Of a stretch of DNA of 64,000 nucleotides, positions 12,329-57,591 are shown piece after piece. The translations under genes were made by a program, and so were the position numbers. This stretch comes from Ectothiorhodospiraceae bacterium 2226 (GTDB lineage Bacteria; Pseudomonadota; Gammaproteobacteria; GCA-013348725). The notes beneath the pieces are model-generated. The model saw only the letters and a program-made list of their open reading frames with translations. It searched no databases and was not told where the DNA came from. The DNA lies in NCBI GenBank assembly GCA_013348725.1, contig CP054689.1, positions 2,414,501-2,478,500 of the forward strand, given 5' to 3'. The number at the start of each line of letters is the position of its first letter. The first letter of the stretch is position 1.

Positions 12329-12442
12329 CCGTGATCAACGGCTTGCAGCCGCCGATCGCGACGGCACATCCCTGTGCCGCGGGAGGTTCTGGATCGGTCA
12401 GAGCCTCCCTACTATTTCTTCATTAGAACGAGGAAGCACGCC

Positions 12443-12763: not shown

Positions 12764-12812
12764 GTCCGGCCGTGCGCCGGCGTACCGCCGACGTGCTTCC
12801 CCTCCTAATTCT

Positions 12813-12824
12813 CCCCCCCCCCCC
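12813..12824 (+). repeat. C12 homopolymer tract
   Basis: A run of twelve C residues in the 155-base gap between the Rieske gene and the first DUF2173 gene, ending 94 bases before that start codon. Tracts of this length are prone to slippage. It could tune a promoter by length change or be a sequencing artefact. Confidence 0.8.
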
Positions 12825-12918
12825 GCTCGGCTTCCTCGTCGCGCCCTCTCGCGTTCCCCGTTCACAGGCGCCGTGCGTCGACTAAGCTTGAACTAAATCA
12901 AAAGCGCAGGGGAAACGA

Positions 12919-13278
12919 ATGCGATTGATTTCCGAGCTGATTGAAGAACCCGGCGTCCGCTTGGCGGCGGACTATCCCTACCGCGGTGACCGCACCAGCA
13001 TCGAGGGTGACATGCCCCGCGAGAACGTGGATCTGCTGGCGGTGGTGTGCCGCTCCAACACGACCGCGGTGCGCATGGAGAGCGACATCCTCAGCCTGCT
13101 GGCGGGTGGACCCGACAAGTTCCCACCATTCCGCGGCTGGATGGCGCATGGCGCCAACTACAGCCTGTGCGTGGTCTCCAACACCTTGGTGCTGTGCAAC
13201 AACGAACAGGCCTCGTTCACGCGTGTGGTGCGCCGCATGTTGACGGGCCTGCACGACGCGCCGGACGAACGGATCTAG
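12919..13278 (+). CDS. DUF2173 (roadblock-like) protein 1
   Basis: 119 residues, soluble. Similar in size and pattern to DUF2173, a small alpha/beta family with a roadblock/LC7-like fold. This copy is the most divergent of the three: it keeps the RGWMAHGANYSLCVVSNTLVLC core with two cysteines and the C-terminal helix FTRVVRRML. The start follows AGGGGAAACGA. The next copy begins 114 bases downstream. Function unknown; roadblock proteins often bind small GTPases or act as dimeric scaffolds, but no GTPase gene is adjacent. Confidence 0.7.
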   Translation: MRLISELIEEPGVRLAADYPYRGDRTSIEGDMPRENVDLLAVVCRSNTTAVRMESDILSLLAGGPDKFPPFRGWMAHGANYSLCVVSNTLVLCNNEQASFTRVVRRMLTGLHDAPDERI

Positions 13279-13392
13279 CGGTACGCGTACAGTGCCCATG
13301 GGGCGGTGCGCGCGGACAACCAGCAAGGGCGTCGGCAGGTCCGACGCCGGATGGCCCCGACGGAGCGGGGCAGGCGAATCTAGGGGGAACGT

Positions 13393-13731
13393 ATGACTTC
13401 GATGGACCAATTGATCGCCCTGCCGGGCGTGGTGGCGGCCTTCGCCTTCAGCGATCGCGGCGAGTTGACGGAGGCCAAGCGGCGCGGCGAGTGTCCGCTC
13501 GACGACCGCAAACTCGACCTGCTGAGCCACCTGTGCGTCGCCAACCTCGCCGTGGCGACCATGCAGGCCCGCGGCTGGGGCACCCTGACCCAGAGCGCGG
13601 ATTACTATCCGGTGGAAGCGGTGACGTTGATCGGCGACAAGTGGTCCGCGATGGCCTCGCCGACGCACGGCGTACTGCTCGACACGTCGCAGGCGGATTT
13701 CGATGCCGCCTACGACGCACTCACCGGTTAG
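13393..13731 (+). CDS. DUF2173 (roadblock-like) protein 2
   Basis: 112 residues, a typical DUF2173 protein. It opens with MDQLIALPGVVAAFAFSD, the family's usual start, then LSHLCVANLAVATMQARGW, a central sheet (VEAVTLIGDKWSA) and a short final helix (FDAAYDALTG). The ribosome-binding site is AGGGGGAAC. It lies 9 bases before copy 3, so copies 2 and 3 are co-translated. No catalytic motif is visible. The paralogues differ enough that they probably form a heteromer and not redundant copies, but this is inference. Confidence 0.8.
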   Translation: MTSMDQLIALPGVVAAFAFSDRGELTEAKRRGECPLDDRKLDLLSHLCVANLAVATMQARGWGTLTQSADYYPVEAVTLIGDKWSAMASPTHGVLLDTSQADFDAAYDALTG

Positions 13732-13740
13732 GAGGGGCCC

Positions 13741-14076
13741 ATGCTAGAGCGTTTGCTGAGGCTGGACGGTGTGGTGGCGGCGGTCCATTTTCGCGAGGGC
13801 GGCGGATTGCTGAACGGCGTCGGCCAGTTGAGCGGAGAACAGATGGAACTGGTCGCGCGCTTCGCGAACGACCACAAGCGCATCACGCAAAGTAACGGCG
13901 ATCAATTCTCGGTGCTGGCGCAGATGAACGGCTGGGCCCCGGCGCGCGGCTGGATCGTGCACGGGCCGCGCATGTCGGCGGTGGGCATGGCGGACATCGC
14001 CTGTGTGTTTCGCAACGGCGCGGCCAAGTACAACGAGTTGCTCGAGGAGATGCGTCAGACGCTCACCACGCTGTAG
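13741..14076 (+). CDS. DUF2173 (roadblock-like) protein 3
   Basis: 111 residues. It begins MLERLLRLDGVVAAVHF, parallel to copy 2, and has the family's GWAPARGWIVHGP turn and a final amphipathic helix (YNELLEEMRQTLTTL). It lacks cysteines. It follows copy 2 by 9 bases behind GGAGGGGCCC and faces the AsmA-like gene, ending 10 bases before that gene's stop. No transcription terminator is seen between the two. Confidence 0.78.
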   Translation: MLERLLRLDGVVAAVHFREGGGLLNGVGQLSGEQMELVARFANDHKRITQSNGDQFSVLAQMNGWAPARGWIVHGPRMSAVGMADIACVFRNGAAKYNELLEEMRQTLTTL

Positions 14077-56307: not shown

Positions 56308-57591
56308 TCAACCCCAGGTGTCCTCGGTGATGCTGGCGTACCAGCCGAGGGTGTAGCGCGCTTCGGCCTCGCGGTAGTCCTTGCCCACATCGGCCGGGCT
56401 CACGCCGCCGGCGCCTTCCACGCCCGCGATGCTGCCGTTCTCCAGGCGGTAGACCGCGGCCACGGAGATGCCGTAGTCGGGCGCCACTAGGCTGTAGCAG
56501 GTGTTCACATGCGAGGGGCTTGGCACTTCCTGATCACGCATCATGGCGATGATGGCCGCGGCGGTCATCTTGGCCTGGTTGTTGGCCGAGTGGCCCGACT
56601 TGGGCATGGCACCCGCCACCGAGGCGTCGCCGATGACGTGGATTCCCGGATGCACCATGGACTCGAAGGTGGCCTGGTTGACGTTGCACCAGCCCTGCTC
56701 GTTGGTCAGTCCGGCCTGCTCCGCGATTTCGCCCGCCTTCTGCGCCGGGATGAAGTTCACCACGTCGCCGCGGTGATCGCCCTGATCGGTGCGCAGGGTG
56801 CGGGTGTTCGCGTCGACCGCGGTCACCTGCCCGCCCTGCGAGCCCGGCATCCACTCGATCATGTCGCCGTAGAGTTCGTTCCAGCCGGCCTCGAACAGCC
56901 CCTGCTTGGAGAAGCTCTCGCCGCTGTCCAGGATCAGGATCTTGGAGCGCGGCTTATGCTGCTTGAAGTAGTGCGCCACCATGCTGGCACGCTCGTAGGG
57001 CCCCGGCGGGCAGCGGAACGGCGCCGGCGGTACGCGCATGATGAAGGTGCCGCCGTCGCGCATCTCCTCGAGCGCCTTGCGCAGGCGTTCGGTCTGCAAG
57101 CCCGCGCGCCAAGCGTGCGGCATGGAAATCGCCGCCTGCGGGCTATAGCCCTCCACGGCATCCCAGTCGAAGCCGATGCCGGGAGCGATCACCAGGCGGT
57201 CGTAGGTGAGCGACTGGCCGTTGTCGAGTTGCACCCGGCGGCGCTCCGGGTCGATGCGCGTGGCACGCGCCTGCACGAACTCCACGCCGTGCTTGCCGAG
57301 CGCGTCGAAGCGCTGCGTGATGTCGCTGATCTGGCGCAGCCCGCCGAGCACCCAGTTACTGCCGGGGCAGGTGACGTAGCGGTCGTTGACCTCCACCAGG
57401 GTGACGCGGATGTTCGGATCGAAGCGGCGCAGGTACTTGGCGCAGGTGGCGCCGCCGAAGCCGCCGCCGATCACCACCACGTGCGGCTGGGCGCCGCCCT
57501 GCTGTGCGAAGGAACTGCCGGCCCAGGGAGCCAATGCGAGCGCGCCGCCCGCGCCCATGAGGCGGAAGAACTGACGTCGTGAAGTCTTCAT
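56308..57591 (-). CDS. fccB: Sulfide dehydrogenase flavoprotein subunit FccB
   Basis: 427 residues. A Tat signal (SRRQFFRLMGAGGALAL) leads into the FAD-binding domain (VVIGGGFGGATCAKYLRR). TCPGSNWVLGG and GWCNVNQATF carry the cysteine pair that, in flavocytochrome c sulfide dehydrogenase, forms the redox-active disulfide. VHPGIHVIGDAS and a C-terminal FCSD flavin-binding region complete the enzyme. It oxidises sulfide in the periplasm and passes electrons to the cytochrome encoded by fccA. Start ATG at 57591; fccA ends 9 bases upstream. Confidence 0.92.
   Translation of the reverse strand: MKTSRRQFFRLMGAGGALALAPWAGSSFAQQGGAQPHVVVIGGGFGGATCAKYLRRFDPNIRVTLVEVNDRYVTCPGSNWVLGGLRQISDITQRFDALGKHGVEFVQARATRIDPERRRVQLDNGQSLTYDRLVIAPGIGFDWDAVEGYSPQAAISMPHAWRAGLQTERLRKALEEMRDGGTFIMRVPPAPFRCPPGPYERASMVAHYFKQHKPRSKILILDSGESFSKQGLFEAGWNELYGDMIEWMPGSQGGQVTAVDANTRTLRTDQGDHRGDVVNFIPAQKAGEIAEQAGLTNEQGWCNVNQATFESMVHPGIHVIGDASVAGAMPKSGHSANNQAKMTAAAIIAMMRDQEVPSPSHVNTCYSLVAPDYGISVAAVYRLENGSIAGVEGAGGVSPADVGKDYREAEARYTLGWYASITEDTWG

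Follow-up and report, generated by a model that had tools for sequence, protein, structure and literature searches.

A fixed-order triplet of divergent DUF2173 paralogues with predicted roadblock/LC7 folds tracks sulfur-oxidation genes in Gammaproteobacteria

The window, the whole stretch of 64,000 nucleotides analysed here, comes from the single-contig, 2.96-Mb genome of Ectothiorhodospiraceae bacterium 2226 and carries three consecutive, intact forward-strand genes for paralogous proteins, A (positions 12919-13278; 119 residues), B (13393-13731; 112 residues) and C (13741-14076; 111 residues), each falling in the clade of the same letter. A and B are separated by 114 bp and B and C by 9 bp, and an AGGAGG-type ribosome site lies directly 5' of gene C. 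The products match the Pfam family DUF2173 (PF09941) with scores of 77, 91 and 104 bits, respectively, all above the gathering cut-off of 26.1 bits; the same model matched 46 of 46 homologues of A, and no NCBIfam model applies to the three window proteins. It is these matches that uphold the initial annotation, which had claimed three consecutive, divergent DUF2173 genes and whose coordinates, codon lengths and 9-bp spacing between the second and third copies also proved correct when the open reading frames were checked. On the 5' side lie the suf genes, a terminator-like hairpin with a weak T tail (12381-12409, + strand), a Rieske gene and an unstranded intergenic region of 155 bp (12764-12918). 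This last region contains a run of 12 C residues (12813-12824), possibly a slippage, phase-variation or assembly-sensitive tract. A consensus scan found no sigma-70-like promoter 5' of window gene A, and the triplet might be transcribed from the suf side.

AF2 models of A and B, built from 46-row alignments, reached pLDDT values of 88 and 92, and both display the alpha-beta-beta-alpha-beta-beta-beta-alpha order of the roadblock/LC7 fold. Compared with the PDB by Foldseek, the top matches of the two models were MglB, Ragulator subunits, p14/MP1 and archaeal roadblock proteins, with MglB and Ragulator leading for A and MglB for B, the best E values being 6e-4 for A and 6e-5 for B. The roadblock-like assignment made earlier thus holds. 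A profile of C found no credible match among PDB sequences, so that the relation to roadblock proteins is visible through the fold; that C adopts the roadblock/LC7 fold too is suggested by its membership of the same Pfam family. Moreover, the glycine described as invariant in the beta1-beta2 turn of the superfamily (as cited in PMC7949163) is present as G23 in A, G23 in B and G21 in C, and is 99-100% conserved.

Among 369 relatives of the same class, DUF2173 occurs in 45 genomes, as a tandem triplet in 40, as a pair in one and as a single gene in four; when 398 genomes were drawn from across the phylum, it was found in this genome and no other, and a search of plasmids gave no match. Scanning GTDB genomes with a profile of C gave 80 loci, and the names of their hosts include Thiohalobacter, Thiogranum, Thiohalophilus, Thioalkalivibrio sulfidiphilus, Solemya symbionts and Sedimenticola. 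The order is A-B-C in all 82 loci that hold the three genes (83 were analysed, the remaining one being cut by a contig end), and again in a further set of loci with divergent triplets. Two apparent exceptions, ACB and CAB, were an artefact of over-long ORF starts, and both revert to A-B-C when the starts are trimmed. Across the triplet loci the spacing between B and C has a median of 9 bp and is often -4, which suggests that the two genes are translationally coupled. In a tree of 63 proteins A, B and C form three groups with one change each (clade support 88/63, moderate, for A; 99/90 and 100/97, both good, for B and C), and none of 500 label shuffles was as clustered as the observed grouping. 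Separate paralogue clades imply that the triplication is old and was inherited as a block, and the simplest reading of the sequences is a single ancient triplication whose products have stayed together since. Thus the earlier proposal of a conserved three-gene module stands, the proteins matching DUF2173 and roadblock models and the tandem copies being present, in fixed order, in related genomes. The single-copy and paired genes lie outside A, B and C, and the single-copy types (L120-L126) branch near B; these share the Pfam family with the trio but differ in type, and are uncharacterised. One pair outside the three types, in genome G503 (L123:9506-10273), is a possible intermediate of the triplication.

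Gene order and conservation make a hetero-oligomer of A, B and C plausible. Three separate homo-oligomers are possible instead, and MglB and MglC are indeed each homodimeric in solution before they bind one another (PMC7949163). If A, B and C worked alone, however, the loss of one or another member would be expected, and partial sets are nearly absent (40 triplets, one pair and four single genes in 45 genomes); even the genes of the pair and single genomes belong to none of the three types. We therefore consider it unlikely that the trio consists of independent homodimer-forming paralogues that share only an operon, their tandem arrangement being a relic of duplication. The pattern of conservation bears on the hetero-oligomer as well. 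Roadblock proteins pair through helix alpha2 and the sheet, and the most conserved columns of A, B and C are enriched in alpha2 (41 of 106 versus 26.5 expected, p = 0.002, with the helix of C assumed by alignment). These columns differ between the three proteins, as expected if each has a partner face of its own.

The neighbourhoods of the triplet vary. In most loci, valS-holC-pepA (reverse), lptF-lptG (forward) and an RDD gene (reverse) precede A-B-C (forward), which is followed by pcnB or purL; valS, holC, pepA and pcnB were identified by eye. Elsewhere the triplet lies by a cbb3 operon (L031, L119) or pyrE/pyrF (L130, L131) and, in the present genome, in an rpoH-cco and a suf-Rieske setting. 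In the two cbb3 loci ccoN lies 3' of divergent triplets (L031:9473-12317 and L119:6569-10075), on the same strand. No neighbour is constant across the triplet loci, most being housekeeping genes, and A-B-C is a self-contained unit without an obligate partner next to it. The suf operon and the AsmA-like protein, which the initial annotation had put forward as the nearest partners, adjoin the window copy only, their places being taken elsewhere by lptFG/RDD, pcnB, purL, rpoH-cco, ccoN or pyrEF, and are thus chance neighbours. A seemingly conserved antisense gene over A was rejected as a mixture of spurious open reading frames and the real, convergent gene of the RDD family.

The host had been taken for a sulfur oxidiser and, in agreement with this, its genome encodes dsrA, soxB and two copies of fccB. 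One of the latter, with a flavocytochrome c sulfide dehydrogenase domain, lies in the window at 56314-56523 on the minus strand. The initial annotation had proposed a check for co-occurrence. Of the 45 genomes with DUF2173, 32 encode dsrA, 42 soxB and 44 one or the other; among the 324 without it the numbers are 85, 110 and 121 (p = 3e-16 for either gene, relatives being non-independent samples). The 45th genome, G734, carries fccB, and it is the only one of 204 genomes lacking both dsrA and soxB in which DUF2173 was found. Further, dsrA scored above its cut-off in 41 of the 50 genomes behind triplet loci. The occurrence of DUF2173 is therefore strongly correlated with sulfur oxidation, as read from rDsr, Sox or FCC genes. 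The family is absent from 74 of 104 genomes with both dsrA and soxB, and so must be dispensable for the pathway; that most dsr-positive genomes lack it marks it as accessory. Within the neighbourhoods, the triplet is not inside any dsr, sox or shdr cluster, its neighbours being housekeeping or cbb3 oxidase genes, and no sulfur-oxidation gene was seen to adjoin it.

Could the link to sulfur be one of descent only, with the job of the trio a general one in the envelope, the oxidase or stress? Conservation of the lptF-lptG/RDD context, with pcnB or purL after it, in many loci indicates vertical descent, and the triplet adjoins cbb3 oxidase genes in two lineages (L007, the second triplet of this genome described below, and L031/L119). 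Yet when one genome per family is taken (n = 56), dsrA or soxB is present in seven of seven DUF2173 genomes against 13 of 49 others (a hand count), and the triplet genomes without dsrA still carry sox or fcc. Descent as the sole reason for the association thus appears doubtful to us. In two Sulfolobaceae, growth on sulfur raises a DUF2173 protein 99-fold and 32-fold, with no function given (PMC11323534); no other paper that names DUF2173 was found in the openly accessible literature. It resembles the trio in that the domain occurs in sulfur oxidisers and is strongly induced by elemental sulfur; unlike the trio it is archaeal, with several transmembrane segments described and no triplet reported (PMC11323534), and as a membrane protein it may not be equivalent. 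In the openly accessible literature we found nothing on COG4831, nor on roadblock proteins in connection with sulfur, and the three-paralogue operon is apparently undescribed there, subscription papers being outside the search.

In bacteria, roadblock proteins are best known for partnering small GTPases, and the family classically regulates such enzymes. A role for the trio as an MglB- or Ragulator-like regulator (GAP, GEF or platform) of a small Ras-like GTPase would fit the fold matches, which are led by MglB, MglA-MglB complexes included, and Ragulator. However, at E 1e-8 this genome shows no GTPase of the Arf/MglA family, and only one of the seven DUF2173 genomes of the 56-genome set has one, a test that covers the Arf/MglA family, the Era, Obg and Rag-like families falling outside it; nor does a GTPase adjoin the triplet in the neighbourhoods examined. 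Binding of a small GTPase of the MglA kind, as raised earlier, is thus not borne out, an MglB-like GAP role is unlikely given the absence of an MglA/Arf-type GTPase here and from six of the seven genomes, and a GTPase regulator of any of these kinds strikes us as quite improbable. MglB and MglC of Myxococcus xanthus are among the closest known systems: these too are bacterial roadblock/LC7 paralogues, MglB is the best fold match, and their mutual binding is known, MglC and MglB associating 2:4 (PMC7949163). Their target, in polarity, is the GTPase MglA, whereas here three paralogues share one operon in a genome without an MglA-family GTPase. Ragulator/LAMTOR and p14/MP1 likewise combine several divergent roadblock subunits, with a high fold match, into a hetero-oligomeric scaffold that is known in their case and a proposal in that of the trio; Ragulator/LAMTOR, in contrast, is eukaryotic and binds Rag GTPases.

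The present genome holds six DUF2173 genes, arranged as two A-B-C triplets, and is the only one among the 45 DUF2173 genomes with two. The second, canonical triplet (L007; contig positions 1117809-1118863) escaped the initial annotation, which covered the window alone. It sits between a gene for an rpoH-like sigma factor, on its 5' side, and a convergent group of cbb3 oxidase genes, of which a copper-type ATPase gene is the nearest. As concatenated proteins, the canonical set is about 64% identical to its best relative and the window set about 43%. At positions that are otherwise nearly invariant, the window copy is changed in about half of the cases for A and in a third for C. The window triplet is a diverged extra copy of the canonical set. 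Among the features affected is a C-x6-C motif, found in 83 of 95 A and 69 of 96 C proteins but not in window A or C; the pair is also missing from A of the f26 and f201 family triplets and from about a quarter of C proteins. In the model of A, strands 81-86 and 89-94 flank the hairpin turn spanned by the motif, and the two thiols are predicted to be opposed across the beta4-beta5 strands. Since the window copy has lost one cysteine of each pair, its role has probably changed.

On balance, and with moderate confidence, we favour a reading in which A, B and C make up, as its three subunits, a cytoplasmic roadblock/LC7 platform that is obligately hetero-oligomeric and serves sulfur oxidation. The three would pair through their alpha2/beta faces, as MglB and MglC or the Ragulator subunits do, and the complex may be a scaffold or sensor by which part of the machinery of sulfur oxidation or of respiration is recruited or regulated. 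Possibly, the cysteine pair on the beta4-beta5 hairpin of A and C is a redox- or sulfane-sensitive element. More tentatively, a GTPase-independent complex of the three paralogues might sense redox state or sulfane sulfur through the hairpin thiols and so gate sulfur oxidation, with a rewired second copy in this genome. In any event, a conserved trio without an MglA-type GTPase, almost confined to genomes that encode sulfur oxidation, suggests that a geochemical pathway of major importance has a component so far overlooked, and that bacteria have a counterpart to the multi-subunit roadblock scaffolds.
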